64,000 nt of DNA. Source: Sphaerolaimus hirsutus. Its lineage: Eukaryota; Nematoda; Chromadorea; Monhysterida; Sphaerolaimidae. Below the pieces are notes generated by a model that saw only the letters and a program-made list of their open reading frames with translations, made no database searches and was not told the origin of the DNA. A program made the position numbers and the translations under genes. Positions 9,996-54,500 of this stretch are shown one piece after another (the stretch's first letter is position 1; the number at the start of each line of letters is the position of its first letter). The DNA is taken from the NCBI GenBank assembly GCA_964036195.1, contig OZ038451.1, positions 22,523,927-22,587,926 of the forward strand, written 5' to 3'.

Positions 9996-11212
9996 TTTGA
10001 GTTATTGAAATTGACAAGGCATTTCAATAACTTGCGGGTATCACAAGTTTTTGAACAATGTGCGTTGAATGTCATTAATATGAAAATTAGATTTTCGAAT
10101 ATTTCTGACAAACATCCACCAAAGAACGTTTTTCTGTGCGTGGAAAAACCTAAAAATAAAATATTTGAAACCGCATCGTTCGGCGCTAATTACATCCTTA
10201 TGACACGCCCATCAAAGCTTACTGCTTTTGTGCCGCGGCGCGCCGCACCGCGACCACGAGTAAAATTTTTATACTATACGACTGCACACTTTTCCGCAAA
10301 ATCTACCATACCCCTCTGAATAAAAAACGAAAATATTATATAACTTTTAACCACAGTATTTGCATTGGCTTCACCAAGGTAAAATTTATCACATAATTTA
10401 TCATTAATTATTTATTTTATTCATCAGATTATGGTAACTTCGAGCAAAAAGCACGCTGACAATTGAGCATATGCGAAAAACACATCCAATTTGGATTGAT
10501 GTGTGCGCCTGCGAACTGGTGCAACAAAAACGGCTGACAATAATGAGTCGACCGTTTAGCAAGTTGTCACCGCGCGCAATCCAATGCCTGTTTCAATGTG
10601 TAGAACGGCGGCCCGGTGTGATTTGTCAATGTGGTTTCCATTTCACGTTTTTTTGCGCGGTTCTTGCAGTGCTGTGAATTGCGCATTGTAGTGCAAGTTC
10701 ACCGTTCAGGGTTCTATTTTTACGTTTTAAAATCAGCCTGACTTTACATTTTCCACGTCTGAGGAAGCAATGAAGAGGCTATCCGATTTTTTTCAGGTTT
10801 CGAAATGGTTCAGATGAGCAATTTGTTGATTCATGTATGTTTTGGCGGGTTCGGCGAAAAAGCTTTCGCAAAGGCGCCTGGAACTGGAGCGAAATTAGGA
10901 TTTTTTGATGAGCGAGAACAATTTGACAGTGATTCTGCCGTGTACCAGGGTTTTTTTCCTACTTACCTAGTCTGTCAAATTCTTTTCAGTGACACGGACC
11001 GCTGTGTACAGGATATTCACGTAGCGTCACATCAATGTCAACACGCGTCTGAACGAAGGCGCCGAAATTTTGCTGTTACATTTGGCTTTCACCATAAACT
11101 GCAAGTTTACATATGCAAACTAAGTCGTGCAAAATCATTACTGTGCATTATTAGTTTCAGTGTCAAAATGACTTGCATTTCTTCACTCAAAATGACCGTG
11201 CATGCGACACCC
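9996..11212. other. Intergenic stretch without recognised genes
   Basis: Open frames of 104 and 145 codons (10005-10319 and 10805-11242) show no domain, coding bias or homolog I recognise. They are probably chance. Confidence 0.4.
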
Positions 11213-11377
11213 GTGGGCAGTCCCAGACCCTGTGAAGTGTAAAGTAAAGTAATTGTGATTTGTAAAGTAATTTGCATGACAATTTACACTTTACTGGACA
11301 TTTGTCATGAAAATTGACACTTTGCATGACATTTTTCGTGACATTTGACACTTTACATTGTCTGTGATTGGCACCAG
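11213..11377. mobile_element. Introner-family element, intergenic copy
   Basis: It starts GTGGGCAGTCCCAGACCCTG and ends with the inverted form, GTGATTGGCACCAG. Repeated TGTAAAGT, TTGCATGACA and TTTGACACTTT blocks lie between. It matches the family of 14076-14268 but is shorter and decayed. Confidence 0.7.
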
Positions 11378-12205: not shown

Positions 12206-12720
12206 GTTTCAGGCGTCAGTTTTTACCTGCGCGCGCTGATTTCTGGGCCAGGTTTTTTTGGCACGCCTTTTCCACGGTGGTGCATTGAAAAAAATTTGTC
12301 CCCATTTCAAAGTCGTTGCTTAAATTTTTGCAACTGTATTTTTGGTGTTCTCTGTGTCGTGTGGAATGTGACAATGTCTTTTTGCGGCCATATATTTGGA
12401 AATTTACGTTAAGAGCCACGGCTGAATAAAAAAACGTTCAAATATCACCATCATTTTTCGAAAAATACGATAGGTTATCCATGGCGTGAGTCAAGGCTTT
12501 CATAAAATGTACAACTGAAAGAAATAACAAAAAATTACAAAAATCCGTCAACACCCATCAAAAAGGCACTAAAGGCACATTTTAGTGTCAAAGTTTGTCG
12601 AAACCTGACCCACCACATCACACCCGCCAAGCAAAAACTGACCGCCGCCATGTGCACCCTTCACACGCCGGCTGCGCGCTGGCACGTCTGTGCTGCCCTG
12701 GCAGAAATGTCTCTTGCCAG

Positions 12721-12916
12721 GTGCCATTCCCAGACCCTGTAAAGTGCCCTGTAAAATGTCAAATGTCACGCAAATTGTCAAAAGCCATGTAAAATGCCTT
12801 TGGAAAATGGCTGAAAAGTCGTTTGCCATTTTCCAGGGCATTTTACAGACTTTTGACACTCTGCTTGACATTTGACATTTTACAAGGCACTTTACATGTT
12901 CCGTGAGTGCCCACAG
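12721..12916. mobile_element. Introner-family element, full-length copy upstream of SBSPON-like exons
   Basis: The copy begins GTGCCATTCCCAGACCCTG and ends GTGAGTGCCCACAG, so it has the same GT...AG layout as the intronic copies. The two arms pair over most of 196 bases and meet at AAGTCGTTTGCC. It lies between the candidate signal exon and the next exon, inside a presumed intron or intergenic DNA. Confidence 0.75.
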
Positions 12917-19162: not shown

Positions 19163-19320
19163 CTGGCGCCGCTGCCAGACCTTGGAGAATGTAAAAAAGT
19201 CAAAGTAAACATGTCAAAAGTGGTGTAAAATGTCATGTTAAATGTCAAATGTTCATTCATTTTTACTAGTTGTTTGACATTTTTCATGACATTTTATACA
19301 GGGTCTGGGAGTGGCACCTG
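19163..19320. mobile_element. Introner-family element, intergenic copy
   Basis: CTGGCGCCGCTGCCAGACCT and the inverted GGTCTGGGAGTGGCACCTG bound the copy, 137 bases after the SBSPON-like stop codon. The right end is intact and the left end is diverged. Confidence 0.68.
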
Positions 19321-19470: not shown

Positions 19471-19872
19471 AGCGGGAATTAGAGCTCAGCGTCGATTCGA
19501 CGTGAAATGATGACGTGAAATGTTTTCGTGAAATTAATTACACGAGTGTGGATCATGCTACGGGTCTACAATTTTCTAAGGATAATATATGAATCCGTCA
19601 TTGCTTGCAATAGTCTGACGTGAAATGTCAAGTTGTTCCCTGACACTGTGACGTGAAATGATGATGACGTGAAATGATAAAAATTGAATTTTTCAATTCG
19701 CTCTAGTTGTGGCTGATAACACTCAGTATTGGACACGATTAAGGTATTGATTCATATATTATCCTTAGAAAATTGTAGACCCGTAGCATGATCCACACTC
19801 GTGTAATTAATTTCACGAAAACATTTCACGTCATCATTTCACGTCGAATCGACGCTGAGCTCTAATTCCGGC
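19471..19872. mobile_element. Large palindromic element with about 125-bp near-identical arms
   Basis: The left arm (19471-19595) starts GGGAATTAGAGCTCAGCGTC and contains GATCATGCTACGGGTCTAC. The right arm (19748-19872) is its near-exact reverse complement. The centre holds GACGTGAAATGATGATGACG. The interior is too small for a transposase. The arm identity suggests a young insertion, or arms kept alike by conversion. Confidence 0.75.
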
Positions 19873-31942: not shown

Positions 31943-34900
31943 ATGGTCGCCATAACAAACTACTGCCAGTGGACAATGAATTTAAATTTAATTGCCGCCG
32001 CCGTGGCAATACTATGTTTCATTTCGTCAACTGTGACGGCGGTTTCAGAGTATTCTGGAGCTATGATTGCTCCCGCAGAGCCTTTTGTGATTAGGTTTGT
32101 GAATAAATTTAACTTTTCTTTTTTACCACTTAAAAACGATGAAAATTTCTAAATATACGCGACCGTTTGATGACTAAAGTCATGTGAAGGATTTTGCACC
32201 AAATTCACCCATCGACCAAAGATTTCGGTCTTATTTCAAATGGAATATGGCAGATTTCATTTAAAGAGTGTGGTCAGTGGGCTATACCATTGCATCTGCA
32301 GCTAAAATGACCGTAAACTGGCCGTTACAAATTGAGTGTAAACTGGCCTGACCGGTTTTGATTTTGATTGGTGGGTCGTGCAACGATGTTCACATCCACA
32401 TACCGTTTTTCCTCGAAATACCCCCCTTGAATTAACCCCCCTCGAAATACTCCCCTCAAAATGTCCACTCTGAAAAAATAAACACCCTGGGGGTATTTCG
32501 AGGAAATACGGTACTTAAAAATTGTAGTTAGTCAATCAACTACCACACAATATAAATTCCTTTACGAAAATGCACAAAGTTCACTTGAAAATTGTTCTGC
32601 AACCCGTCAACTAAAATGACGTTGACCTGATGAGTTGACATTTAAACCAGTTGACATCCAGTGTGCCAAAGCCCTAAAACGTGTAGGTAGTATTTTGAAT
32701 CCCTACCACCAATAACCTCACCCTAATAAACCGCAGTTTGGACGGGAGTGTGGTCGACCAAAATCAAGGGACCAGCGTCAGAGAGAAACGGAATGCAAGA
32801 TGGCGGCCACTGCTCGTCAGATCCATGCCGCCAAACAGCGAAATGCAGGAATTCCTCCTTCAGAAGCACAACTACTACAGGAGTTTGGTGCGTATTACTG
32901 TACACATTTGATTGCAGCGTAGACAGTACATAAAGACACAAAATATTCAGCTGTTGCAAGGGAGCATTCCATATGGTTGGAAAGATATGCACCGTATATC
33001 CTCGAATAAGATCACGGAGTTATTTCTACGTCAGAGTTTTTGAGGGCAGAGGGGTTTTTCAAGGGGGGAGTTATTTTTTCCTCAGAATTAGGTACATTAT
33101 GTAACTGTTATCGCTGCCATAGGCTTATATTCTTACACACTGCACACACACCAAACGTAGCTTTATTTAGACTTCATTGATGGGTTTTTTAAATTGAGCC
33201 AACATCTTTTCCACCTATCACCGGGGGGGAGTTTTTCAAGTGAGGGAGTAAGTCAAGGGGGGTGGGTTTTTTTATCCTCATTCGGCCAACAGGGGGAGTT
33301 ATTTAAGGGAGGAAGTTTTTCAAGGGGGTCTTATTCGAGGATACACGGCACCTAGATAAATATGTTTGAAGGGGCAACATGGGGCCGTACCAAGTTAAGT
33401 GGCAGGCCGAACTTGTAATGCAATTTAAATGTCAGGCAAAATTTCGGCAATTCAAATGTTTGGTAACGGTTCAAATTTTACGACACAATTGAAATTTGAA
33501 GTTTTGCCGGACATTTAAGCGTACTGCGCGGAACTGACTGAGCTATGCCAACAGTACAGCACTGAAAATTCATGAAAATATAAAAACTGATAATCTTGAA
33601 TCTAGGGAACACAATGCAACAATAAATCAACCCCCGCAGGTGCCGGCGACGAACATGCGCTACATGTACTGGTCGCCGCACCTGGCCGCGTCGGCGCAGA
33701 GGCACGCCAACACCTGCGACTTCAACCACTCCAGAAACAGGCGCAACACCGGCGAGAACATCTGGTGCCAATCCCAGACCCTGTAAAACGCCCTGTAAAA
33801 TGTCAAATGTTACGCAAAGTGTCAAAAGTCATGGAAAATGCCCTGCAAAATGGCAACTCGGTTGCCATTTTGCAGGGCATTTTCCATGACTTTTGACACT
33901 TTGCGTGACATTTGACATTTTACAGGGCGTTTTACAGGGTCTGGGAGTGCCCCCAGGACGGCGCCGTACAGCAACTACAAGGAGGCCGTGTGGCTCTGGT
34001 ACAGGGAGGTCGACCCAAAGTACGGCTGCCAGTGCCCGCATCACTATAAGCACTGCTGCGGGCACTATACGCAGGTGAAGGGTACAGACACTTTTGGGGA
34101 GGTTGGCACCACCGCGGCAATGGGCCCGCACGCACTAGTTGAATCGTGAATTCGTGTCAACTGAATGTCAACTAAATAACAGAAAATTGGAAGCATCATA
34201 CTTATACAAATCAAAATTTATGATATAAAATTAACTAGGTATATGCCCTTATCACATCGGAAAGTTGAAATTACATAATTAATCAAAATTTTGTTGAATT
34301 TAGTTGACACGCATTTCGATGTGAACTAATGAGTGCTACAACATACATGCGCATTTTTCATTGACGAATGCATGAAGAATGCGTGAAGCAGTTAAAGCAC
34401 AGGGCAAAAGCGGCTACAGTTAGGAAGTACCAGACGGAGAAATTACATCCACATCGTCACCGTCTGATGGCAATCCTAGAACGTGCTGAATGTCATGTAA
34501 AGTGAATAAATCGTGTAAGATGACAAAAATTTATTTTATTTTGTTTACTGGACATTTGACCTCTTTATGACAATTTTCATGACTCGTCACATAACAACTG
34601 TGTCTTGAAGTGTCACTTGACAAATGCCCAGTTATCGCATCTAGTATTGAAAAAATCATCAATTTTTAGAAAATATAATCAAATCGCATCCCAAAAACCA
34701 TTCAACTCAGTCAGTCCCACACAGGTAGTCTGGGCGGACTCGTACCAAATGGGCTGTGGGGCGGCGCGCTGCCGCGACGTGCAGGGCGTGTTCGGCATGG
34801 GCATGCGCTACGTGCTCGTGTGCCACTACAACCCGTCGGGCAACACGCTCGTGCGCACGCCCGCCGGCACCTACGCCCTGCCCGCATTCAAGTGGCAGAG

Positions 34901-34973
34901 GGCTGGATTGAAGGGCTGTTCCGAGTGCGATAAGAGGCTCAAGAATTGTTCCAATGGGAAACTGTGCTATTGA
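31943..34973 (+). CDS. Secreted CAP (SCP/TAPS, CRISP-type) domain protein
   Basis: Five exons: 31943-32094, 32737-32887, 33640-33764, 33957-34074 and 34725-34973 (stop TGA), in consistent phase, encode about 264 residues. The first exon has a hydrophobic signal (LNLIAAAVAILCFISSTVTA). The CAP fold follows: helix 1 LLQKHNYYR, then WSPHLAASAQRHANTC, GENIW, the signature GHYTQVVW with a downstream Cys, and YVLVCHYNPSGN. The histidines of the CAP cavity are in HANTC-type and GHYTQ positions. A short C-terminal Cys cluster (GCSECDK...NCSNGKLCY) recalls the CRISP hinge. CAP proteins are secreted and have many roles, so no specific one can be given. The start at 31943 has an ACAAAATGG context; ATG 31976 is also possible. 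Intron 3 is exactly one introner. Confidence 0.9.
32401..32514. mobile_element. Short TACCGTTTTTCCTCGAA-family element in CAP intron 1
   Basis: TACCGTTTTTCCTCGAAATA and its inverted form ending GAGGAAATACGGTA are only about 114 bases apart, so this is a minimal member of the family. Confidence 0.65.
32990..33352. mobile_element. CCGTATATCCTCGAATAAGA element in CAP intron 2
   Basis: CACCGTATATCCTCGAATAA and the inverted TTATTCGAGGATACACGG bound the element, with GGGGGAGTTATTT tracts inside. It is the AATAAGA subtype of the CCGTAT group, like the repeats at 7243-7640. Confidence 0.6.
33765..33956 (+). mobile_element. Introner: element exactly equal to CAP intron 3 (192 bp)
   Basis: The intron runs from GTGCCAATCCCAGACCCTG to GGTCTGGGAGTGCCCCCAG with no extra bases. 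The exons join TG + G as Trp in GENIW-TAPYS. The two arms are near-perfect complements over about 90 bases and share variants not seen in other copies (AAAACGCCC, CATGGAAAAT, CCTGCAAAAT). The RNA could therefore fold into one long hairpin. Confidence 0.92.
34128..34340. mobile_element. GTTGACATCACAAATTCG palindromic MITE in CAP intron 4
   Basis: CACTAGTTGAATCGTGAATT with GTGTCAACTGAATGTCAACT on the left, and GTTGACACGCATTTCGATG on the right, form the arms. Related copies lie at 35010-35222, 57903-58085 and 58426-58650. Confidence 0.6.
34464..34600. mobile_element. Decayed introner-family copy in CAP intron 4
   Basis: GATGGCAATCCTAGAACGTG and TGAATGTCATGTAAAGTG are recognisable on the left. 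The right end is unclear. Confidence 0.45.
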
Positions 34974-35540
34974 GAGGGGATGAACGTGATTGGAACTCGA
35001 TGGGTCCACACGCACGCTAGTTGACATCACAAATTCGTGTCAACTGACTGTCAACTAAATGACACAAAAATTAAAGCTTCACACGTCACAGAAACAATGA
35101 AGATTAGGTAAAGTGTCAGGACATGAAATAAACTATGCTAGAAAAACTGAAATCACATAATTAAACAAAATTTAGTTGAATTGTGTTGACACGAATTTTG
35201 ATGTCAACTAGTGTGTCAACTAGGGCCCGATGAGCGACAAATTCGCGTTCTACATATTCGTTGCGGGCGGCGAGATAGGACCAGAGGTGACTAGACCAAT
35301 CACAAACAACTGGGCCAGAATCCGGCTTGAGGCGAATACAAAAAAGGCAATAAGGCGCAAAAAGTTATTAAAAAAGCTTCAAAAAGTCATTTGTTTAAAA
35401 AAAACAGCTCCCACTTGGAACCAGGTCTTGAAATAAATATAAGCCAATTACTAAATACATACATACTTCACTTACGCAAGATTAAACCTTTTGGATTCAC
35501 AAAAAAACTGGCGTGTCCCGTGACGGGTCTAGTCAAGCTC

Positions 35541-35663
35541 TTAGGGGCCCCAGGGCCCTGTAAAATAATGTCAAATACTATGCAAAGTGTCAAAAGTTGT
35601 GTAAAATTCCCTGTAAAATGGCAAACATTTTACATTATTCTACAAGACCTGGGAGCGCCCGCT
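35541..35663. mobile_element. Introner-family element between CAP and ANAPC1
   Basis: TTAGGGGCCCCAGGGCCCTG and TACAAGACCTGGGAGCGCCC are diverged inverted ends, with TATGCAAAGTGTCAAAAGTT inside. Confidence 0.55.
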
Positions 35664-36526
35664 GATCCATGTTCTCAAGCGATAAGTACAATGTACACAA
35701 CATTAAAATGCGGGTGAAAGATGCAAATGCACAGAATACATTTACTCGGATTTGCACATCAGAGTTTGCATCAGAGTTTGATGATAAAAAATCATTTCAG
35801 AGTGATGTAACGCAACCAAAAATTATCTGAGCAGTTGGGATTTGTCTCATTTTTACAAGCAAAGCTGTATCCAACCGCATTTACTATTATACTTTAACGC
35901 CAAAATTAAGAGAAACATTCAAATATTATACATAAATGGTTTCACAAACATAAACAAATGGATTTCAAACTCTGATTGCAATTTTCTGCTGCAGGTATAC
36001 ACAGTGATGTTTTTTTAGTCTGTTGACGGCACACCTTACAATGAAATGTACCATATTCCATCTGAATAAACGAACAGACATAAATAAATTTTTTCTCATC
36101 ACATAGCTCCCACTTTTGGTTAATTTGGTGCTCAATTTTTAACGTTACCATACCTATTTATCAAAATATGGTATGATTTATTGTATAGCATTCTGTCCGT
36201 TTAGTAAACATACATTCCATGTCATAAACTATTTGATTTTTGTTGAACTAAATATGAAATGATAAAAGAAGACCGAAGGCAGCGCATTACCAAATTTAGT
36301 TCAAGATCAAAACTTTACGGCGAGTTTTTACACCAATATGGAAATATAAACAAATCATTGGTAAATGTCATCATCAATTTGAGAGAACACAAATTACTCC
36401 TAGGCGTGGAGTAGATTCTGTAAGTCATGATTTTGTACAAAGCTTTAAGTGACGTGGAGCGAATTCATTTCACCCGTTCAAAATAATAATTTTTAAAAAA
36501 ATCGCAAAAAATAAAAAATCATGAAT
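35664..36526. other. Region downstream of the ANAPC1 stop codon
   Basis: AT-rich DNA lies between the convergent CAP and ANAPC1 genes, and I see no exon. It should hold the ANAPC1 3' untranslated region. The nearest minus-strand AATAAA I noted is near 36180. Confidence 0.35.
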
Positions 36527-39500
36527 TCACACAACGCGTGACAGCGCAAAAGCACACCTAGGGTGCACTTTAAAAGTCAACAAATGCTTCAAAATGCTAG
36601 CCTTTCTCTTCACAACTTGAGTATCACTAATACCATCTGGCACCGTGCCAACTTCACAATCAACTGCATCAAGGACCGCTTGAAGCTGTATTGGTGAGAT
36701 TCCACATGCAGCGGAAATACCCACCGCTGTACTCAACGAACGAAAGTCATCCAATGGGGAAGCGTTTCGTGTGGCTGACAAAAATGACTTGAGCCCCTGG
36801 CGAATATTGCCTGCGCAATGAAACTCTTGTTGAGATGTTGTTAAGTGGTTGATATTTCTTGCTTGATTCGGTCCCGTACAATGATATTTGGAGCAAATAT
36901 TTATGTAATTGCGGAAAACGTACAGCAAAGATCCTTCCGGAATCAATATTTCAAACTCGGCACATCTCACAACAATTATCTCCAACAAAAAATGCAAAAA
37001 AACACACAAGATCGGCTGATTTAGCACATGAAGTACATATTTACATAAATGCATGGAATAGCTGGTGTAATTTCTGATTGGATAGATAACTACAAAAATT
37101 AAGGGTGTGTTCATTGCAAACAGAAAAAAGCTTTTCGGATGTATTTAGTTTTTAACACAGAAATTAGCCCAAAACATAGATAAAATCAGATCAATTTGAT
37201 TTCAATTTACTTTTGCAATTGGACTTTTTGTCAAATCCACCGCCAAAAACGAACCACCACTCATAGTCACATTAGCCAACATGTCGTCGATCCATTTCTG
37301 GACCATTTCATTCGCCAAGGGCACCGTGACCCCTTCGCAACTGCGGTCCAATGTTACTCGATGCACAGCGGCCGCTAATCGAACTTGGGCCACATCTCGA
37401 GCGCACATTGTCTCGTTTGGACGTTGCGACCATTTTGTTGTTTTCTGTGAAGAGGGGGGGGGGGCTTGAGATGTCTTTTTGGGACAAAATGTGGCTATTC
37501 GCGCAGTGTTGAGTGATAAGGGAAAAGTTGTAGCGGATAGTAATGCAATTTAGATGTTTACGTCACTTATCATAAAAAACGCCACTTGAAAACCTGATCC
37601 AACGTTCCCGGGGGCTGGTCCCGCACCTTGAAAAATCCATATAAAATGTCATACGGACATGTCTGCATGTAAATGTCAAATGGTCGGGAAAAAATAAAGA
37701 AAAAATTTCTGGGCATTTTACATGAAATATTGATGACAAATTTGTTTGGCACATGACGTTTTACAGGGTGTGGGATCGGCCCCAGATCAACATTCAACTA
37801 AAATCAAACCAAAGCCGCACTCACCAGATGCAAATTAATCAAACAAGGCATCGCCAGTGGACACTCCTGTTTGTCGCACCACAGCGCCACCGACGCGATC
37901 AAATCCTCGAACGGGTCCGACTCGGCGCCGAGGCACAAGGGGCGCCACACGTTGGCCGGGCGCATGACCAGCGCGGCCGCCTTGTGCTCGCTGTCCGGCG
38001 CCCCGTCCGAGCTGTGGGGCAGGCGGCCGGCGCGCAGCATCACCGGCAACATGCCCTGGTGGTTGTTTAGGAGACGCCTGGGTTACGGTAGAATTTTCTC
38101 GCACCGTATTGCTCGAAATAGCCCAGGGGGTTTATTATTTTGTCAAAATTTCATGGCGGGGGGGGGGGGGTAATTCGAGGGGGCTTATTATCTCGTTAGA
38201 ATTTCTATGTTTTCGGTTGAATCATTGCTTTTACATATAGTGAAAAATCTGCTTTGAAATAGTTCGAAATAAGTAAAAATTTCAACTAAATTCCAAATTT
38301 CAAATAGCTACACTAATAATTCAAGTGAAACTGCAAGGCAAAATGGCATTCAGTTATGCATAATGTTCATCATCCATAAAAAGTATATTTCAAGGGGATT
38401 AGATTTTCGCCAGCTCACTCAGGATTGGAGGTAATTCGATGGCGGAGGGGGTTTAATTCGAAGAAATATGTTAGTACTTTAAAATGACCAAAAACCAAAA
38501 ATTCTAACACCCTCTAAAACCAACCTGAGTGCGGCGAATTGTCTTCTCTTAGTCAAGTCAAATCTAACGGGCCAATATCTCGCATCGTCCACATTCACCG
38601 CTTTGAGCAGTTTCAACTCGGGCAGCAAACAGGGCGCGCGCATGTGCACGCTGCACTCGGAGTATTCGTCGGCGGCGGCGTAGTCCACGCGGATTGTGAG
38701 CGTGGACATGGTGGGCGTGCCCGTGTTGGCGCTCGTGTCCACCTGAGGTCGAGGGATTGTGGGATGTTATTGAGGATTGTAAATTGAGTTTAGATTTAGA
38801 GGTATTGATACACGGGAATTTTGGACTCGAAAATATATTTATTCAAGCTCGAAAACTATCAGCTCGACATCTGGTGGCAGTTTCGCAGCCGGTCGGGTAA
38901 AATGACCAATTTATGAAAAATGCCAAAAGTTCAGTAAATTTAATATATATTTTTTTTAATTGACATTTTAAATGACATTCCAGACTTTATGTTACACTTT
39001 GCGGCACTGCAAAAACCTCAAAGCACAAATCACTCGCTACTTATGCATGCGAAAAATCTAGCCAACCGGCAGGACGGCCCTTTGATCGGCGGCAAACACC
39101 CAGAAATGTCTGAGCGCCTGCAGGTACTGCTTGTTGTCGTCCATGGAGGTGGCGAAGCGCGGGTAGAAGGCGATCAGCATGCACGCGATCGACAGGTCGT
39201 CCGTTTTAAGAGAGTACCGCCCGCCGCCCAGAAGACACATGCCCACTGGAAATATGGGTTTTATTCAAAGTGAAACGATTTTACACAGCGGGGGGCAGTT
39301 GTGAGTCCTGTATGTCAAGTGTCAAATGTCATGTGAAATGTCGATGAAAACAAAAAAATTATCACTGAAATTTTGATACTTTGCACGACATTGACAAATT
39401 GTGTACGACATTTTACATGACATTTAACACTTGACTTGACACTTTACAGGGCCCGGGACGGGGGTGCACTGATACGCACATCTGCCCGATACGCACATTT

Positions 39501-42500
39501 GCCCGTTTTTTTCACTTGACACTTCACTTGAAAAATAGCCATTTTTCATTGTTTTTCACTCGACACATTTTCAAGTGATTTTAGGATATGAGTGAAGTGA
39601 AAAAAGTTCGCTAATGTCATTGCGCAACTTTTTTCACTTCACTCATATCTGAAAATCACTTGAAAAAGTGTCAAGTGAAAAAAACGGGCAAATGTGCGTA
39701 TCAGGCCTGCCCCCCCGGGACTAGCACCATGTGAGAGATTCAATTTGCCCGACATACATTTTCGGTCAGACACGTTCACTGTATCCGAAGTTATACCCGG
39801 CAGACACGATACTCTACAAACAGATAGGAGTTATGTCTTCGGCTGGCAGACGGCCAGCCGAGAACTTATGGAAGGCGTGATCAAGATGTCGTGAAGACGA
39901 CGTGATGGCGAGAGATGATGATCGGGACGAAAGTAATCACGTCATGATGGAGTGTTTCCTCCGGAAAAATGTAATGTCATCCGAGTATACACGCTATCGA
40001 TTCAATGCGCTTCTGAATCAGCATCTTCAGAATCAGAATCAGGAATTATATCACACGCAATAAATCGGGCTGCCCGAACAATGTTGTCGGGCAAAAAAAC
40101 CTCGTCCCCTTCCATATAACCCACCAGCAGTGTGCGCAGCAGCATGAGTTCCATGCGTCGCATTGGGCGTCTTATCGACCGCATCTGCGGTCATGCGCAG
40201 CAGGCGGGCCACCCGCAGCACGTCCACGTTGCCCGTGCCGGCCATGACGGCGCCCAGCGCTAATACAAGGGAGTTGAGGCATGTGCTGAGAGTCCAGCGG
40301 CCGGCGCGCTCGCGCAAAGCGCCGTACTTCTCGGGCGGCTCGTAGTACTCGTCCATGACCATGCGCAGGTAGGACAGCTGAGAGTGGGGGGTTGGTTTGG
40401 GGTTGGGATGATATGACTTTTCGATATCGATACTCGATATTTTTTTATGAAACTCGATATCAAATGTTTTCAAAATTTTCGATATCTATAGCCGATATGA
40501 ACAAATGTTAACTGACTTGCCGGAAATGGAAAGGGGGCAATTTTTGCCGGAAATGTGAACTGCTATCGACCAAACCACACCCACCAGTGTTTCAAAGGCG
40601 GCCGCGTTGGCACTGCCAGCGAATCTCAAACCCATGGCGAGGCAGGCGCCAGCGACCACGTGGCAATACACCTGTGAAGATGGAAACTTCAACGGCAAAA
40701 CGGACGGAATTGGCGTGGCATGTCACAGCTTGGCACAAACAGCATTGAAAAATGTATGGGAGATTAATATTTAAAAATATATATCAGAAAATATAAAAAT
40801 ATACATTACACATGGATTTTAATTTTCGGGATTTTGAAGAAAGACAATTATACTTAGGTATTTTTGTGAAATTCTCTGAAATTTTTAAAAGTATATACAT
40901 AGCATTTATATTTATTTTCGTTTTTGTGGCTTTTCAGAGAGATTTGATTTTTTTTGAGAAATTTCCCGAGATTATATTTTCTCAAAATCACCAATTTTCC
41001 AACGCTAATCACAAAAAAATCTCTTTAAAAAGTCATAACTTCGCACACCAACTCTACCCCCACACACAAACCTGGGCAATACTCTCCTGATCGAGCAAGC
41101 TCATAACTCTAGCCTCCAAATACTCTGGATCATTAGGCATCGTGTCGCTGCCGGGGTCGTCGGCGGCGACGAGCAGCCGGGCGACGCGCTTGTCGCCGCC
41201 GCAGTGCAGCCGCCGGATGTAGCGCAAAATCACCGGCGGGACTTGCGACTCGACCCAGTCGCGGTGGGGACGGATCTCGTCCCACAGGATGAGGGACCGA
41301 CTCAGAACCCTGGTGTGGCGTGATGATTGGTGGGACGGCGCGGGACGATTTAACAGTGAGAAATCAGGTGGAAATGTAAAATACTATTTGAGAAGTGAGA
41401 AGTGAGGAGTAAAAAGTTAACAAGTAAAGCATAAAAAGTAGTCGCATTTTACTTCTCATTTAACTCCTCACTTTGCTTAGCTTTTAATCTTTTTCTTCTC
41501 ACTTCTCATTTCTAAAATGGTTTTTGACTTCTCCACTTGTGGAATCTATGTATTTATACAAACCGCAGCATCAAAAAGTCCGGCCGCACATCGTCCAACA
41601 GCGTGAGCGTCTGCGGCGGCTTCAAAGCGTCAGCCACCAGCTTGTCGCCCGTCTTCAAGAACATCAAGCCGAGCGCCATGGTGGCTGCGGGGGACGTGAT
41701 GTGAACGTTGACGCGCGAGCCCTCGCTGACCAAATTCGACGCGTCCGAGGGGCGGCCGCCGCACGCTACGCTCGCGGAGATGCTCGGTAGTTCTGCGAAA
41801 TGCGTGCAGATTTTTCGATATTGGGCACTATGTGGATGTTTATAGGCTCTACAGACAGATAAGTTGATATTTTAATGTCAACTGGTTTATGTCAATTCAG
41901 ATTACCTTTCTGATGTCGCAGAACTATCAACAAATGAAGGGTGTGCTTCTAAAAGTACCGATCTACAAAAAATCGATTTCGAGATAATCGCAATTGAAAG
42001 TTTGGAGTATGCAATACTAGGGTTGGAAAAAAAAACGTTTTTTTTTAACTCGATGTTTTTTTTAAAAAAACAACGTTTTTTTAAAAAAAACAACCTTTTT
42101 TTTTAAAGCTCCCAGATATGACCTAGTGTCAACATATATAGGTATATCAGACACTGGCAATACTCTGTGATGTTAAATATGACCATATAATGGCTGTGGA
42201 GCCATCGGATAGCATTATAAGTGGTGATTTGTGTCAAAAATATCCATTTTTCGTCGACATATCGTTCGTATATCGCCTTATAGTCGAATGTTCGTGACTT
42301 CAGGTAAAGTTTGGCACGGAATGGTGATCAAACAAGGTTATAAAAGGAGGTTGTTACTTTGGGAGTGAAGTTACACACTGTGGAGGTACATGGAAGCACA
42401 TTACCTCAATATTATATATTACAGCAACATATGTCGGCTTATTCACCCATGGTAGCACATAGAAATGGATGTTTTGATACTAAAAATGCAACAAAACCAA

Positions 42501-45500
42501 TGAAAACAACCACCAATGTCAATTTGTGTGTGAAATTGCGCGCTTGCGCGCAAAAATTTTGCAAAATACCTAGTGCTTGCTACTAAAAATTTTGGCCGAT
42601 GTTTTTTAAAAAAACAAAACATTTCGGACGTCATGTTTTTTTTTAAAAAAAACGTTGTTGTTTTTTAAAAAAACGTTAAAAAAAAAACATCGGCCAACCC
42701 TATGCAATACCCATACATGGGTATTGGGCATGGGAATTTTGGGTATGGGTATTTCGGCCATATTGTTGGGTATCCACATGCATGGGTATAATCATTGATT
42801 ATACACATAACACTAGCTATATAAAATTTAGTGAATTATATTTTTGTAGTACAGTACATTTTAAAGGAACAAATTGGTAATAACATGCAGGGACGTATCC
42901 AGGATTTTTGAGCGGGGGGGGGCTGTTTGTTTACGGAGCCCCGCGAGCGGGGGGGGCTCAGCCCCCCCCCTAAAATGTTGCCTACAAAGGGAGGTAATGG
43001 CGCCATGGCGCTGGCGCCATTCGTAGGCGTCACGCCATGGCGACATTGGCGCTGGCGCTAGCGCCAGAAATCACTGTATATGTAATGGAAATACACTACA
43101 TATAGAGCGACGGGCACACGATTGAGTGAAATTTCATGGATTTGAGTGTATGGGGACCGATCTGCTGATATTTTTGTGTGCGCGACGAATGCGCGCTTGC
43201 GCGCAAAAATTTTTACGCGGCACCTTGAGATTTGGTACCGAAAATTGCATTTTCCCGGTATTTTTCCGGTCTCGCCCGGGAAGGGGGGGGCTGCAGCCCC
43301 CCCCCGCCCCCCCCCCTGGATACGTCCTTGATAACATGTAGATCGGTATTTTTTAAAGCACAAAATCAGACAGCTGTAGATCGGTACTTTTACCCATAAT
43401 AAAAAAGCACAAAATTAGTTTTTGCTGAATCAGACGCCGATCTGACATCGGTACTTTTAGAAGCACAAAAAATAATGTGCAGATCGGTACATTTAAAAGA
43501 ACAATTTTGAAAAAAGTGTGTAGATCGGTACTTTTAAAGACACAAAAGCTGAAAAAGCTTGTAGATCGGTACTTTTAAAATTTCAAAAACCGAATTTTGC
43601 GATTTTTTTGCTTTTTTCGACCCCCCATATCTCAAAATTGAATTTCGCACCCTCCCACATATTATATATTTTTTTGAAGCGCATGTTTATGGGGACCCCA
43701 AAAATGGTCCTAACTCAAATTTAAAAAATTTGTAGATCGGTACTTTTAGAAGCACACCCTTCAAATGGGCTAGTGCCCATTCCGCATCAAAGCCCATTCC
43801 GCATGTACACCCATTATAGACACATTATGCCTGCAGGGGTAAGAAAGGGGGATGGGTAACACCACCCCCAACCGCCCAGCTATCTATCTATCCCTGGCAC
43901 AAATTTTTTTGGTTACATTCCCTTGAACACCCCCACACCCGCAAATTGCCTAGCTATCTAGCTATCTGGAGCGCTTTTGAGCAATTTTACCCTAATTTTC
44001 ACCAAAATTCCTTAATTTTCCTACTTCTTATAGATTTTCACCTTCAAAATAACTAGGTCATGTGTTTTATTACCTATTTTCAACATGCCAGGTATGATTA
44101 AATGTGTTCCAGGTTACATGCGGGATGGGTTTAGATGCGGAATAGAGCACTGCCCTTCAAATGTACATGGCGCATTCAACGTCGAGGCGTGTGCATTTGT
44201 AGGTCGTTCTGCGACACGCGAAATAAAACCAAATGTCAACTATCTTGTATAGCACCACATCACCCCAATCCAACCATCAGTATCCATAGCAATAGCCATC
44301 TCATGAGCCTCGGCCCCGGCGGCCGGCTTCTCGCCGCCCCTCACGTAAAGCATGAGCCGGTCGAGCAGCGACAAGGCGTGCCTGTCGTGCGCCGCGTAGC
44401 CGGAGCCGGACGCGCCGCAGCCGACCGAACGGACGCGCCCGCCCGCGCCCAGGTTGATCAGGCCGACGGCGATGCCGCACGCGAGCGCGTGCGCTTCGCG
44501 CTGCGGCCACACGTCGCCGTCGCCCGCTGAGGAGGGGGGTGGAAAGTGGGTGAAGAGATTTGAGGTGTGGAAAGGTGGGGAGGCGAGTTTTGGCAGTTTT
44601 TACAGGAGGTGCATGGAGAGTGCGTCGGGGTACTCGTCAAGGGGCAATCCCGCACCTTGTAAAGTAAACTGTCAAATGTTATGCAAAGTATCAATTAAAT
44701 TTTTTTTCTAGAAATCAACTTTTTGTACTTATCGATTTTTAGAAGTACGGGTCTCAAATACATAAAATACGAATTGCACAACGGACTAGAAATTCCCAAA
44801 GAGACTCTGCGATGGGCCGCTATTGTTTCCAAAAATGACAATTTTCGAAACGCGGAATGCAAAATTTCAGTGTGCAACTCATTAAACCGCTCAAACTTCA
44901 GTCAAGTCAACCCCCCCCATTAAACCTGCTGGCGGGCGGCCCAATTCACCCAGCAGCGCGTCGCTCATGGACCAGTGGCTGGTGGCGCAGTGCAGCAAGC
45001 CGATGCCGACCAGCGCGGCCACTTCCACGGTCCTGTCGATCGGCAACTCCACCAGCGATCGGGGCAATAGACACGTGGCGTGCGTTGACAGCATTTTGTA
45101 CGCCTGCGCGAATTTGCTGCGATTTGGCTGAAGTGTTAATCGCGATTTGTTTTAGAAGAGCGCCTTATAACAATATAACAATGGCATTATCAATGCATTG
45201 CCAATGTATTGCCAATTCCACAAGTTGAGAAGTAAAAACAAATCTTAATAACGCGAGTCACAACAAACCCAACCAAAACCAACGTTCAAATCGCTGGTGC
45301 CCACCAACGCGGCCGATATACCCAACAACAACCCCACGGTGGTCATGGGGTCGCACCTGGACAGGTACTCGTGCAGATCGAACACTGACAACTTGGGCAA
45401 GTGGCCGTTCAAGCCGAGCCCCATCAGGAAGCCGGCGTGCTGCGGCGTCATGTCGGCGCGCCGCCGCGGCATGTGGTACATGATCCACGACGAGTCGAGC

Positions 45501-48500
45501 GCCAGCTCGCCGTTGCTCCTGGGGGATAAAATAAGTTAGGTATTTAGAAATAAAGTTATTTAACATTTCATGCCATGCTGGAGCCGTCAGTTACAGATTA
45601 AAATATTTCGATTTGGAGTGGCTCCCTTCAAAAAATTCAGCGTTTAGTAGGCTGGACCACTGCGCCATAAATACTAAACTGAAGACTTTCGTGGCTACAC
45701 ACCCCAACCCAAATGCTGAAACATTGGGGAAGGTTAATTAACCATTTCTGCCTAGTAACACATAAAAAGACAACTTCGCAAAAAATGGCAATCACAACAC
45801 CAAAAATGGCAATTGCCACCCAAGCCACCTTTTCGCCCATGTGCTCTCCAGCCCAGAGGAGGGGTCCCTGAGCACAAAGCGCCCATTCGCGTCGGCTTTG
45901 TAGTGCTGCGGCGCGCCGGCCACCGGCGCCAACTGCAGCGCGGCCGCCACGCCGTTGTGGAAGCGCGGCCAGTCGAAGAATATGTTCTGAGATATATTTC
46001 AGGGTTATTTTCTCTGAATTATAGTGAGGAAAGTATCGTGAAGGGCGTTTCAAAGGTTTATGGGAGACGGATGTTTTAAAAACATCAGAGACTATAATTT
46101 TTTTATATTTTTTGTATTTGTATTTTTTTCCAGAATTTTTCAGGCAGATTTTATTGTGTTTATATTGTATCTGTGACAGAAAATACTAAAAATCCCTCAT
46201 AATACCCATTCTAAATGACTTCGGCGTCCAAATTTTGACTGAAATTTGCTCGAAAAACCCCCATTCTGATCGTGTTTTTTAAAACTCAGAGAACTACGAC
46301 GAACGAGTGCTGCACGAACCACCTTACCAAGCTGCACCCACCTCAGTACCAGGCAAATCAATCCTCATATTCCTGGGCGGCGTGCAGCCGTGCGTCACCA
46401 ACTCGGGTATGCCGACGGCGCTGGTGGCCGAGGGCGTGACGCAGCGGAAAGTGAGCGCGGCGCGGCCGAACGGCATGGTGGACGAGCGCACGCAGCAGCC
46501 CAACAGCCACGCTTCTTGGCTCTCTCGGTATTCCTGGTCTGATTGGCCCGGCTGCGGGGGATTGACAGGGTGGAAGATAGTGGCAGCTTTTCTACTTACC
46601 GGAGTTTTTCAAACGTTTTTTTTTGTTGAAAATGTTAGTTTGAAAAAACCGCATTCATGGTAACCGTTTTTAAAGTAATCTCGAGTGCTTGTTCACTAGG
46701 TATTTTGCATTTCTTTCATTTTCACATGCAAATAAAAGCTTCATTCAATGTTTGCTTTAAAAGCTGTTGTTTTCTTAAAAAAGTTGTTTTAAAAACGGGG
46801 TCGTTAAAAACATTATTGAACAGATCGAAAACGTTGTTTTCATCCCTGGTTCTACTTATGAGCGCCACCTCACAGATCCGAACCAACCATGATTTTCAAG
46901 GTGATATAAAACGGTCTGGAACTATTCAACATCCGTCTAACTCTAGCCACCCTCAAATCTGCAGGGAACCTTAATCTGAGATATTTCGATATGCCAGGCG
47001 AGTCCAGGCACCACATGCCGTCGTCAGTGGCGCCCAAGCCGGACTGCACCGGCTGCATGGGAGTTGGCAGCATGCCAAGATCACAGGTCGCTGGTAATAA
47101 TGAGTAGCTGAAAGTAGAGTGGACAAGAATGAGAAGGCTATAAATATCGGATGAAAAAAGAGAAAATTAACCTTTGTTTTGACGCGAACGGCTCGGGGGA
47201 ATCGGTGCGCGTTGCGTACAACAATTGGAGCAATGTCAACGCGACGCCATCGGGCAGCCGGCCGATAAAATTCTTATCCACGCCGAGTAGGGATGCTAGG
47301 CTTCTAGCCCTGAAAATTGATACAAAAACTATAAATACATGCAAGCAGGGGGCACTCACAGACAGTGTAGAATGCCTTGTAAAATGTTCAATGACCTGAC
47401 AAGTGTCAAAAGTTATGTAAAATGTATAGTAAAATTTTACAGGGCATTTTACATGACATTTTGCAGGGTCTGGGAGTGGCACAAGGAACCACAGCACAAA
47501 AACGTCAAATCGACCAACCTGTCCCCACCACCAACATCGGCACTCATAACCGCGTCGATACCGGCGTCGATAACACTCGCATCGACATTGACAGCGAGTC
47601 GACTGGACCACTGCTTGCCCAGCATGCGCTCCAACTGGGTGCGCGAGCGCAACTCGCCCAGAGCCGCCGCGATGCACGAGAAGGACACGCACACAGACGA
47701 TGGGCATGCTGCCATGTTGGGAAGGGGGCGAACACTGGTATACTCGGCGGACCGCATGCCATGCATTTTTCTGAAGGAAACACTCCATCATGACGTCATA
47801 ATTTATTTTAAAAAGTAATTGTTCTAGCAAAAAAGAAAAAAGTTTCAGGAAAAAAACATTTGTCGCGTGTGCGCGACTCCGCCTTTTTCTTCCTAAAATA
47901 TTGTGAAATATTTTTTTGTGAAAGTGCATAACACAAGTATCTTGCTCGCGCGTTATCGACCAAGACATAAGTAATTTTGGGCGCATACTTTGCGGTCCGC
48001 CGAGTATACCTGGGGGTAATTTCACACCTAGTCAAGTGTCAAGTAAGCTGATATAAACTTGATATAAAGCCAAAACTGAATTTGAACCATTGACTCGTTG
48101 CTTATCACGTGTAGGTACCCACTCTCGGTACCAAACTCCCATACCTGATCCACTGAGCCGCGCAACGGAGCACGGGGAAGACTGCGCCAACTGTCCATGG
48201 CTTTCAAATAGATTCGATAGCGCCGCGTACCCACTGTAGGCTTTCTCGCTGTGGAAAGTGATCCGCGCCTGGTTAAGCTTACTGCGCGCACCTGTGGAAA
48301 AATGTCAGGTAAAATTGTGGCATCCACTTTGAAAAATAAATGTAACTTTCTTTCATCGACAATAAGTCGGATTGGCCTCGAAGCCAGCGCAGGGAAGTCG
48401 TTCAGATACAGTTCGATGTAAGCCGGCCACTCAAACGACCTGTACAGGGCAAATTTTATGAGTCACCACCGCCAACACAAATTTAAAACATTTTGGGGGG

Positions 48501-51500
48501 CACTAAAAGACACTGTAAAACATCAAATGTCATGCAGTGTGAAAAGCCATGTAAAATGCCCCGTAAAAAGGCAAATCTTCCTTTTACATCTTCTCTGTCA
48601 TTTTACATCAATTTTGACACTTTACATGACATTTGACATCTTACAGGGCTTGCGGCATCAGAAGACCAACCTGGCAAATACGAGCAGAAACTTCGCAACC
48701 TGTACCAATTCACTTTCCGAACTACTCGAATCCATCTTTCTCTCTTCGTAAGCTGCATGCGCCGCGATAAAAACGTGCATCGTGTACGGAAAAAGTGGAG
48801 CAGTCGACTGTACGGGAATTTCGTCACGCGCATCCATTTCTTGATCAGAATGCGACTCGCTGGAATCTGGGGGCAGTCCCAGAACCTGTAAAATGCCCTG
48901 TAAAATGTCAAATGTCATGCAAAGTGTCTAAACGTTTATACAATGCCCAGGAAAATAACAAACGCGTTTGTCATTTTCCAGGGCATTTTACATACCTTTA
49001 GACACTTTGCATGACATTTGACATTTTCCAGGGCATTTTACAGGGTCTGGGAGTGGCACCAGAGCAAGGCTGCTGTGAATCCATTATCGATGCAACGATG
49101 CCGTCCCACCCAGTTGAACATAGGGTGGGCCGGACATTGGACACCATCAAGGTAAAATCCTGCAGGATAAAATATTGTTGAAAACTATGCCTTGGGGAGA
49201 CATTTTTATAGGCATAAGTAACACGTTTTAAATAGGTAAGACGATATCAAGAAGGTTGAACGTAGCACAGGAAATTTCAGAGTACCCATATTTGTTTCAT
49301 ATAGCCGTATATGTTTGCTGATTACTACTGATGATTACTGCTGATTACTCATTTGTGAGATCTAAAAACTGATTTTTAAAAAAAGCAACGTTTGATATCA
49401 AAAAGTCTATTTTTAAAACGGGGTATTTCAAAAAAAATTTCCACCACTATTTTCAAAATGCACACTTCAACCTCACACCAACCGAATCCTCTGGCATAGC
49501 ATCCGAAACGGAACTTCGCTGCCTGCGTCTCTTCAAATCCCTCTCACCCAACAAATCGCAAACACCGGCGCGGTGCTCGAGCGCCGGCTGCACGGCGTCG
49601 CCGAAGCCGGTCAGCTCGAACAGCAGCCGGAGGTAGGCGCGCAGCAAGTGCGCCTCGTCCGACCCGCTCGACCGCTGCAGCCACTGCGCCAGCAGATGCA
49701 TGGAGCGCTCGCGCGGCACGCTCTCCGATAGGCTCCGCCCACATTGGGTGACTGGGGAAAATGGGGATTAGTGCGTTTTCATGATTATTTTACGATCGAC
49801 ATTGTGTGGCTTGGGTGAAGCCGTATCAATTTTCAATGTTGCTATTTTTAATTCCATATTTTTCGATTAAAAATATCGTCACATGATATTTACAAAAATT
49901 AATGCAAAAATTTACGGGGCGAGAAACCCACCGAATAGCTCCTGGCATTCGGTTGACGGCAGGGTGAATTGTACACTGGTCCCGCAGTCAAGCTTCTGAA
50001 AGTGAGAAAGGACTATTAAAATTTAAAACCATCCAACAACCCAAACAATTACAATTTCTAGCACAATAAAAACACACGGCACAAATTCGACTGCCCACGC
50101 AGGCGCCCAGTGCGCAAATGCGGCCCGACAAATCGCTGCCGCTGGGCGTCGCGTGCAGCGGCGGCGGCGAGCATTCAATTCGGACCGTCTCCGGCGCTGG
50201 CACGCACAGCGCACCGAGCTGAGGGCGGAATGGACAAATTAATATTTAGGTGAACCGACCATGGCTTGTTTGAGCTTGAGGCAAACACAGATGCACTTTT
50301 ACAGTACAATAATTTCAGTAATGGACAAACTAATGGCAAATAACTCAAAGTTCGCTTTTACAGTTAATTAGAAATTTAATCAAACTTACCTTGGTGATGC
50401 CACTGTACAGTACCAGCGCTCCGCTTGATTCCAAGACAACCATGGTAACCTGTATGGAGATTCGATAAATATGTAGTCAGCACGATTCTCCAATTGGGGG
50501 GGGGTGGCACAGGGTAACGGAGATTCAGCTATCTATCCCAAGCTGGGTTGGCAAACTCTCAGAAAATAAAATAAAAACCAAATGGAAAATTTAAGAAAAG
50601 AATAAAAAAATGGAAAATTAGAAAATAAGTACAGAAGTTGTTTGAAAATTCGTATTTTTGTAATGTTGTAAAGAACTTCCTGAGAAAAACTGAAACTGAG
50701 GAATGAAAAACCTGAACCAACATCACTCGCAGTGACATCCTTGACTCCACTCAAAATCGTACAAGCGCCAATGCTCAAATTAGGCGCTTTCAATTCATCA
50801 CACTGAGCGTGAGTAGTATTTACTTTGAGGCACTTCAATTGGTCTGAACTGGCGGCCAAATAACACAAAAATAGTTGACCCAGCGCGTCCCGAGTGAGAA
50901 ACGATTTTGTCGCGCAGACAGTTGACGCTTCGCTCCTGAAAACGGTGGCAAAGAAAAATTGGAAATAAACTCCGCGGACGGCATGCTTTGAAGTTTTATG
51001 AAGGAAACACTCCATCATGACATCATCGTAAATAAAATAAAAATGTTTAAAAAACGTTTCAGGAAGAAATATTCATCGCAGATTTTTGTTTAAATATTTA
51101 CCTTTTTATGAAACTGGGTGCATAAGTATCCTGTTCACGCGTTATCAACCAAACATAAGTAATTATGGAAGCATACTAGTCGAGTATACGAAAATGTACA
51201 GCCAGAAAACCACCCAAAAAGCAACTCACTTGTTCCTCACAGGCGTCTCGGTCCAAATAAGCTGTAAACACAGTTCGGGCATGAGGGGTTCCTGTTCAAT
51301 AGGTGCGCCAAGATCAGTCATCTGAGCACTACCAGACCCTGTCAAATGCCCTGTAAAATGTCAAATGTCATGCAAAGCGTCAAAGTAATGTAAAATGCCA
51401 TGTAAAACTACAAACGTTCGTTTGCCATATTCCAGGGCATTTTACATGACCTTTGACACTTTGCATGACTTGTTACATTTTACATGACATTTTACAGGGT

Positions 51501-54500
51501 CCGGAGGTGGCACCTGACTGACGTGCATGCGCACACTGTGGCTCAACCTGCTGCCGCTCAGCGAGGGCGCGGGCGACGACGCGGCCACCATCGCCAGGCT
51601 GCCCTGCCGCTGCGTCGAGTTGGTCGCGCCGACGGTAGATGATGGCAGCCGCGCCTTGCGCACGGTGGCGGATGACCGGCGGCCGCGCGCGCTGCGAGCA
51701 GTCAACGCATGATATTGAGTTGACCAGAATGAGATTTCTGTCAACTGTTGTTGATGGAACTTAAAATAGCGTATTACGGTAAACTCTAAAAATGAGTTAG
51801 AAGCTAATTAAAGATTTTTTTCATATTTTTGAAATTTCGGTAGAAAACTAGGCATGCCCACTAAAATTAAAAGGAATGTATTTTTTCCCAGCACACTCAG
51901 ACCAGGGGGTATTCGAATGGGTTAATACGAGGATATACGGTAGCCGTAAATCAAAAAGTAGACTGCGAAAAACCGGGTCATTAAAAAGTGTGTTTTTTTC
52001 ATCCCTAAACCCACCTGCCATAGGCCAGCCTGGTGACCACTGAGCTGTTACTGGGCGACTTTGCCGCGCGGCGCGTACGAGCAGACGCACTGGATACATT
52101 TGCCGCGGAACGTACGGAGCGGCAAGAGGACTCGTTGGCGACACTGGGCGAGCATGGCGTGGCGCCGCAGAGCAGTTCAGATTGGGCCGCTACGTATTGG
52201 GTGTTGATTTGTGATGGGAAATTTTTTTATATATTTTTAATTGGTAGTTTTATATTTTTTTAAATGTTAGAAAAAATCAAACATACCAAGTTTGTTTGTA
52301 TTCCTATTTTTAGAGCATTTAACTGAGAGATTTAATAATATTTTCTTTTTGAGATTTTTTAAAAACTATCAGAAAATATATAAAATATCTGTTAAATATT
52401 TATTTATATCTTTTCCAGCTTTTATTGCCAGATTTTATTTTAATTTTATTAGCTTTTATTTTTTATTCCATACAGATTAAATGTTATTTTATTTTTGAGA
52501 GATTTTCTGTGATTATATCTTATTATATTTTTCCAAAATCACCCACTTTTAATGCTAGTGGAAATAGGTAACCAAACTATGCATTTATTTTTAACCTCTG
52601 GCCAACTGGAAGGCGAGCGGTTCGCTGTTTGATTCGACAAACGAACAGCTGCCGCTATTGTCGCCGGCCAATGATGAAGCATCGCGGAGGGACGGAGAAT
52701 TCCTGCACTCGTGGATGGAAAAAGTAAAAAAATTTGCCAAAATCACAATTAAATTCAAGACTTAACTAAAGAAGTTACTGCAGAAACCAACCCAATGCTG
52801 ATAAGACGAGACACAATTGGGCTTAGTATGGGTTGGGCTGAAACGTCCATTAACTGGGCAGTCATAGATCTGAAAAGGACAAGTTATATACTGTCACAGA
52901 AAATCAAACGTGATCCATTTAGGGGATTATACTAGCCTTTTATCCATTTACCAATTTTTTCAGGATCAGGATTGCGATCTTCAAATTTCGGGGTCGGGAT
53001 TGGAGCCCCGGAATCGGGATGATTAAATCCCGAAAATTATCGGGATTCGGGATCCCGTTTAAACCCAAAGTTCACTCAACCGAACCTGGTCTTCATAACC
53101 CTGGGGCCGCCTGAATCGCCCAGCGCGCTCGCATCTGGAGTGCTGGTGACAAAATCAGCCTGCGTCAATTTGCCTCGGCTCGGTCCGGTTGTCCTGGGGG
53201 CACTCCCAGACACTGTGAAAAGCCTTGTCAAATGTCAAATGTCAAGTAAAGTGTCAAAGTCATGTAAAAGTCCCTGGAAAACGTTCATTTGCCATTTTCC
53301 AAACCATTTCCTCACAACTTTTGACACTTTACCTGACACGTAACATTTTCCAGGCCATTTTACAGTGTCCAGGATTGTCACCTGGCCCTCTTGCCCACAC
53401 TCGTGCCGGAAACGAGTGCCGAACTACTGGACACCTGGGAGGAGAGCTGCGCCCCCGAGGGCGTGTTCACGCTGCTCGAGGGCACCAGGGAGGAGTTCGT
53501 GCACGTGGGCGTGGCGTAGGTGGGCGTGGTCAGCGAGGTGAACGAGCTCGTGTAGGACGAGCACGGGTTGGCGCCGTCGGCTGGGGGGGGGGGGGGTTGA
53601 ATGTTGGGCGCTGTTGTTGGTGTATACCTGGCTCTATGATGAAATGGTTTGGACAGAGAAAAGTCTCGCAATTCATTTAATAAGTGTGAAAAGTCATGCA
53701 AAATGCCAAATTTTATTTTATTTTCTAAATGTGTCTCTGACATGTTTCATGACCAGGGGTATCTTGAATTTTGTCCCTCCGAGTGGTTGGATAGATAGCA
53801 AATCGCTCCTCCGGAGGGATAGATAGCTGAAAAATTTTCTGGGGGGGGGGGGTTGGGGGGGGGGTTGTGGTGGTTCAATATATAGGCTTTTTCGGGGCAT
53901 AGAAGGACGAAAAAGGGAGAAAAATCGCTAAAAGTAGGGTAAAATAGCTCAAAATGGGTATACAAGCGCATATAGTACTTAAAATAGCTGAAAATAGGCA
54001 GTTAGATGCATGAACTAATGATTTTGGAGGTGAAAATCTATATATAGGTATGAAAAATAGGTATTTTGAGCGAAAATTTGGGTATAGTTTCTGAAAAATC
54101 GCTCCAGATAGGTAGATAGCTGGGCGATTTGGGGGGGTTTAGGGGGTAGTAGCCCAAAATTTTGCCTCCGGATAGATAGATAGCTGAGCGGCCTCCGGGA
54201 TAGATAAATAGCTGGGCGGTTTGGGGGGGGGCGTAACCCCCCCCCCATTCGAGACCCCTGTTCATGACATTTTACACTTTGCATGACATTTTACATTTTT
54301 ACAGGATGCGGGACATGCACAAGATTTACCAAAAACATTTAGGTACCCAGTTATATAGTTCAGTGAGCAAAAGCTGCCATTTTTCATCAATGTTACAGGA
54401 AACAATTTTACAAAAAAGTTAAAAATATCACGCAAAACTCACGCGACAGAAACGTGACCCGTCTGTAGACGGCGGACTCCAAGCCCAGACCCCCGACCGC

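Follow-up and report, generated by a model that had tools for sequence, protein, structure and literature searches.

Palindromic elements with a CWG target-site duplication as probable introners in genes of the nematode Sphaerolaimus hirsutus

Introduction

The introners surveyed by Gozashti et al. (2022; PMC9860276) are non-autonomous, many of them with target-site duplications (TSDs) and terminal inverted repeats (TIRs), and the families differ in which splice site is taken from the duplication; among animals and land plants, introners were found in only two groups, both of them animals. Two other described systems are close to the case reported here: NuwaI transposons of the PHIS superfamily, which occur in animals only, make a 5′-CWG-3′ duplication and have TIRs that usually start with GGG (PMC4482050); and the TG acceptors of human genes, which are used only as alternatives to AG and never as the sole 3′ splice site (PMC2374985). 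Here we describe a family of palindromic elements found in a 64,000-nt stretch (the window, C2:22523927-22587926) of the 348 Mb, 762-contig assembly of the nematode Sphaerolaimus hirsutus. Judged from sequence, the element is very probably an introner, that is, a non-autonomous palindromic DNA transposon whose exonic copies in sense orientation would be spliced at the element's own ends.

Results

Five introns of the window are copies of one element

Five introns in three genes of the window were proposed in the initial annotation to be copies of one palindromic element, and their coordinates, lengths (188-193 nt) and end-to-end alignment were all verified. They are located at 14076-14268 (forward strand, SBSPON-like gene), 33765-33956 (forward strand, CAP-domain gene), and 48867-49059, 51322-51513 and 53194-53381 (reverse strand, ANAPC1; the last is a likely intron copy), with lengths of 193, 192, 193, 192 and 188 nt in this order, and every copy lies in splice sense. 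All five have GT..AG borders: read in coding sense they start with GTGCAA, GTGCCA, GTGCCA, GTGCCA and GTGACA, respectively, and all end in AG, as part of CCCCCAG in four introns and of GCTCAG in one. The triplet is CAG on both sides of the SBSPON-like intron and of the ANAPC1 introns 51322-51513 and 53194-53381; the CAP intron and ANAPC1 intron 48867-49059 follow a CTG and end in CAG (for ANAPC1, as read in coding sense).

Once the element is removed, the reading frame is open through the junction in all five cases, which bears out the earlier claim that reading phase is kept. The homology support for the flanking protein blocks differs among the introns. Pfam CAP spans the junction at 33765-33956 (residues 4-82 of 83 joined residues, E 1.8e-9), and the alignment to APC1 (PDB 5g04_A) reaches 13 residues upstream of the junction at 51322-51513 (independent E 2.7e-9). 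At 48867-49059 the APC1 alignment is weak and reaches only 6 residues upstream (independent E 0.029); at 14076-14268 a Somatomedin_B match (3.5e-7) lies in the downstream exon only, the upstream exon resting on frame continuity; and at 53194-53381, where that part of the query is unaligned to APC1, frame continuity is the only sign.

The element is about 195 nt long and forms a nearly perfect hairpin with long TIRs. For example, the predicted RNA fold of the CAP copy (33765-33956) has -164.6 kcal/mol (z = -24.7), and none of 200 shuffled sequences was as stable. Read inwards, the left end is C(A/T)G-GTGCCA(A/C)TCCCAGACCC, and the right end, which differs from it, is C(A/T)G-GGGGCA(C/G)TCCCAGACCC. 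Because the two ends mismatch, the outer bases are unpaired in most predicted folds: of 63 copies folded, 50 have the first two bases unpaired and 62 have the last two unpaired. When copies were selected by the right end alone, the left end was found in 19 of 20, and GGT stood there in 19 of 19, so the GT belongs to the family and not just to its exonic copies.

The element also holds motifs at which splicing might take place further inside, with a 5′ border at CCCT-GTAAAA, which would retain 18 nt in frame, or a 3′ border at TTTTACAG, which would retain 19 nt and break the frame. The presence of both motifs, and the fact that the 18-nt extension stays in frame, speak for such inner borders, which are nevertheless improbable: the SBSPON-like intron and 2 of 18 right-selected copies (L134 and L142) have GC in place of the inner GT, whereas the outer GT is intact in all three, and either inner site would insert residues within conserved domains.

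Copy number and target-site duplication

Genome-wide searches with the ends of the element returned thousands of exact ends. A 29-base left end with up to three mismatches gave 13,427 matches (reversed control, 0), which is not an element count, since right ends, too, can fall within three mismatches of the query. Exact 20-base left ends numbered 2,109 (1,117 with CAG and 992 with CTG) and exact 20-base right ends 2,482 (1,515 with CAG and 967 with CTG), with no matches for the controls. From 100 listed left-end places we read 90, all on contigs C1 and C2; after removal of 12 loci without a right end, four with a six-edit right end and three duplicates, 71 distinct copies remained (in one of them, L094, the right end was set three bases too far). 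Copies with identical flanks at neighbouring places on C1 (L023-L025, L069/L070 and L088/L089) point to local duplications or to haplotype duplicates in the assembly.

The outer triplets of the 71 copies are CAG/CAG in 28, CTG/CTG in 20, CTG/CAG in 10, CAG/CTG in 4, and other combinations in 9. The variable base W on the left agrees with that on the right beyond chance (Fisher p=1.8e-5), which indicates a 3-bp CWG TSD and rules out that CTG..CAG is a mere inverted-repeat end. Being short, with TIRs, a TSD and many copies, the element is a miniature inverted-repeat transposable element (MITE).

Intronless paralogues of the CAP gene

Comparison of intron positions was covered by CAP paralogues of the same genome, for this one gene. 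Two paralogues on contig C7 encode residues 1-83 as one open frame (63 and 61% identity, no stops); in one of them the DNA reads continuously GENLWAAPYSNY where the window gene has GENI, the intron, and then WTAPYSNY. Taken together with the duplication and the precise element ends, the paralogues are most simply read as showing gain of this intron by insertion. The left TG of the duplication belongs to a tryptophan codon common to the window gene and the paralogue; thus the left duplicate (CTG) is probably the original one, and the right duplicate (CAG) the changed one.

Copies as probable introns across the genome

For each of the 71 copies we removed the element and took the longest junction-spanning open reading frame (ORF) of at least 55 aa for Pfam scans (cut-off E <= 0.001). 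In splice sense, 62 of 71 copies gave such an ORF and 15 Pfam families were matched; single rescans assign these matches to 13 copies (13/71 sampled copies, or 13/62 splice-sense ORFs). In antisense, none of 55 joined ORFs had a Pfam match. The domain crosses the junction in nine of the 13: CHGN (L017 and L018), carnitine acyltransferase (L032), cullin (L083), trypsin (L084), KxDL (L100, a CAG/CAG copy), oxysterol-binding (L114, 3e-38), peptidase M16 (L119), and glutamine amidotransferase (L128). Calpain has one domain on each side of the junction (L031), and the others are LRR (L011), GPCR (L073), and Tho1/MOS11 (L094, below the curated cut-off). In addition, among eight of the 18 right-selected copies (chosen by eye), OSCP1 matched clearly across the junction (L133, 3.9e-19), a zinc finger fell below the cut-off, and six had no match, two of these six queries carrying extra leading letters (one and about nine, respectively).

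Single scans of L022 (CAG/CAG) and of the antisense ORFs of L030 and L016 gave no match; other CTG/CTG copies had no match above the cut-off (L107 and L010 had none at all, L120 and L126 weak ones). The fragments were only about 100 aa long, so 13/71 is probably an underestimate, and the true exonic share is probably higher. Exon calls based on composition were discarded: they tracked GC content, were blind to strand, and missed the clear exons at L114, L119 and L128. Two further observations concern single copies. L028 and L146 lie in similar zinc-finger stretches (..YLKHTHPDLI.. and ..YWKHTHPDMI..), each with the element at a different position (Pfam below cut-off). For L105 (C2:9486850-9487800), a CTG/CTG copy, the longest ORF in antisense resembles a protein sequence on visual inspection, and, if it were an exon, the intron would be GG..AG; the Pfam scan of this ORF gave no match.

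The element also occurs where no intron is recognisable. There are 27 element stretches in the window, five of which are the introns above; several of the others are partial. For example, a full-length copy at 12718..12916 (forward strand) has CAG on both sides, a copy at 19163..19320 (reverse strand), read in splice sense, is likewise flanked by CAG on either side, and a copy with both ends recognisable at 11211..11377 (reverse strand) has the splice-sense outer triplets CTG and CGG; none of the three is shown as an intron. The element is therefore a dispersed repeat and not an intron-only sequence.

The claim that the transposon family is itself the intron is upheld by the CWG duplication, by the splice-sense-only Pfam junctions and by the two intronless CAP paralogues, and two other origins can be weighed against it. 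Repeats could have been inserted into pre-existing introns, their borders coinciding by chance or through later loss of the old intron sequence; 58 of 71 copies have no Pfam match, copies inside old introns surely exist, and the missing intron of the CAP paralogues could be a loss. We consider this origin very unlikely: in the five window introns and the Pfam-supported copies alike, the reading frame is restored precisely at the ends of the element, the duplication stands at both borders and no residual old intron sequence is seen; moreover, two CAP paralogues are without the intron. Alternatively, the introns could have multiplied through an RNA stage, with reverse splicing followed by retrocopying, rather than as a DNA transposon, which would also place every domain-supported copy in splice sense, as observed. 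That orientation is also expected from selection on exonic copies, and the CWG duplication, the long TIRs and the copies at places with no coding sign make spread as RNA extremely unlikely.

Proposed origin of the splice sites and the CAG/CTG rule

It is the duplication, which the initial annotation had not seen, that would set the 3′ splice site. In the pathway that we propose for the introner, a transposase acting in trans would insert the hairpin at CAG or CTG and duplicate these three bases, the duplication being visible in the copies themselves. The left duplicate and the start of the element together read C(A/T)G-GTGCCA and would serve as the 5′ splice site, and the CCCCC of the right end, followed by CAG of the right duplicate, would serve as the 3′ splice site. 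Splicing would then take out the element and one duplicate and restore the coding sequence, as the frame and the protein homology suggest. It follows that a CAG target would make both splice sites correct at once, and that a CTG target would give an intron ending in TG; a later change of T to A in the right duplicate may then turn this end into AG, an order of events, possibly under selection, that the small-sample pattern below suggests.

Seven Pfam-supported copies have CTG on the left, and the right triplet is CAG in five (L017, L073, L083, L114 and L119) and CTG in two (L018 and L084). This share of right CAG (5/7) compares with 5/27 among the other left-CTG copies (p=0.014), which are copies without a Pfam match and not proven non-exonic. 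Genome-wide, the ratio of CAG to CTG is higher at exact right ends (1,515:967) than at exact left ends (1,117:992; chi-square p=3.5e-8), in a comparison of unmatched sets that could have other causes. Both patterns agree with selection for AG and are no proof of it, the exonic numbers being small and the genome-wide sets unmatched.

The two exonic copies that end in TG, one at C1:5421078 in a CHPF-like gene (L018) and one at C1:25514176 in a trypsin (L084), bear on whether CTG targets yield GT-TG introns. The joined sequence of L018 aligns across the site to chondroitin sulfate synthase 2 (PDB 9q8z_A), and the AG-ended copy L017, which belongs to that gene as well, lies 1,044 bp upstream; L084 interrupts the conserved YP-W-QV of a trypsin domain. 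Of 71 copies, 56 carry an ACAG close to the element end; the first such motif is 19 nt from the end in 23 copies and 31 nt from it in 20. Use of this upstream ACAG as acceptor would keep extra bases. It is possible, if somewhat doubtful, that CTG targets yield GT-TG introns whose splicing, aided by the upstream AG, is efficient enough for them to persist until a T-to-A change makes an AG.

The competing explanation is that TG-ended exonic copies are not GT-TG introns at all, being instead young, harmful or unfixed insertions, or being spliced at another AG; we judge it evenly balanced between true and false. In its favour, full-length CTG/CTG copies are slightly less diverged from the consensus (median 0.087, n=9) than CTG/CAG (0.117, n=6) and CAG/CAG copies (0.118, n=15), an untested difference in a set for which L018 and L084 are too short; human introns never have TG as the sole 3′ splice site (PMC2374985); and L018 has an in-frame AG 18 nt into the exon, whose use would cost six residues. 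Conversely, the coding sequence around both L018 and L084 appears intact apart from the element, and the L018 gene also holds the AG-ended L017. At L084 the first 33 nt of the exon contain a single AG, which is out of frame. TG acceptors are, moreover, known to function in just such a tandem arrangement, with an AG a short way upstream (PMC2374985).

Transposon class, candidate partner and other repeats

The family was not recognised in the initial annotation; we can now place it, provisionally and from its ends and duplication, near NuwaI of the PHIS superfamily. Autonomous relatives in that group would be expected to encode a DDE transposase and a Myb/SANT protein between ends like those of the element. 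We also considered a PF13359 transposase family as the autonomous partner and rejected it. L039-L068 represent a young PF13359 (Harbinger-like DDE) family with many copies about 99% alike, whose end is ..GTGTGCG(T/C)GGGGCC beside AAT/ATT/TAT, unlike the introner ends; an introner end was matched once, as a single lone match at L058, among 30 loci.

Three other repeats were observed in the window. Another dispersed repeat has TACCGTATTTCCTCGAAATACCCCC ends, contains ..AAAATAAACCCCC.. internally, and is located at 18212-18511, 21434-21877, 27672-27840, 29009-30404, 32380-32529 and 54667-54712. A 124-nt inverted repeat (99% complementary, arms 153 nt apart) at 19472-19595 and 19749-19872 is catalogued apart from the introner, and two tandem arrays with a unit of about 33 nt (CCCCTTCAAAACTTCTGACAAAATAATAA..) and similar surroundings are found at 7503-7639 and 8685-8853.

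Discussion

Several points weigh against the element being an introner of the proposed kind. GTGCCA is a weak 5′ splice site by the usual consensus; other sites are present inside the element (GTAAAA 18 nt in from the left end, and ACAG at 19 or 31 nt from the right end); and the nearly perfect hairpin may hide the branch point. Most sampled copies (58/71) have no Pfam match and are not assigned to exon or elsewhere, and loss of the intron in the CAP paralogues is formally possible. As to the transposon class, the left end is GTG and not GGG as in NuwaI, and no transposase with introner ends was found among the 30 PF13359 loci read out of 163 matches (weaker matches were unread, and Myb/SANT was not searched).

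Introners themselves are a known kind of element; the features that seem new here are the CWG rule, with AG or TG as its result, the class of transposon involved, and the scale at which the family occurs in an animal. In the literature covered by titles and abstract openings (most subscription papers and all supplements lay outside this coverage) we found no account of this family, and the family may already be counted in the introner survey (PMC9860276). The family would represent a rarely seen route of intron gain in animals that could be studied in progress: its thousands of intact ends, visible duplications and paralogous empty sites allow a direct test of the change from transposon to intron and of splice-site recruitment, and the system lets a non-AG acceptor be tested as a stepping stone. 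If there is indeed a GT-TG stage, the birth and maturation of introns would be traceable stepwise, and TG-ended introns would be natural experiments on acceptor recognition.

Among described systems, NuwaI shares with the element the CWG duplication, an end starting with GGG (the right end), and an animal host; it differs in that the left end of the element starts with GTG, and the available text on NuwaI mentions no intron function (PMC4482050). TG 3′ splice sites in human genes are similar in having a TG acceptor close to an AG, but are always alternatives to that AG, whereas here the TG would restore the frame and would be made afresh by transposition (PMC2374985). Fritillaria (PMC13326754) and Eurytemora (PMC5714493), likewise animals, have many introns that depart from the GT/AG rule; their border classes are others, and no CWG element is named in the parts of these papers available. 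The introner elements of the dinoflagellate Amoebophrya are hairpin introns with inverted repeats and direct repeats of 3-5 nt at their borders, as in our family; their borders are mostly non-canonical and variable, in contrast to the fixed GT and AG (or TG) found here (PMC7789003). Similar to our family, one mode of intron generation described by Gozashti et al. (2022; PMC9860276) carries the 5′ splice site within the element and co-opts the 3′ splice site from the duplication; the S. hirsutus family differs in using CWG, so that the target base would decide between AG and TG.

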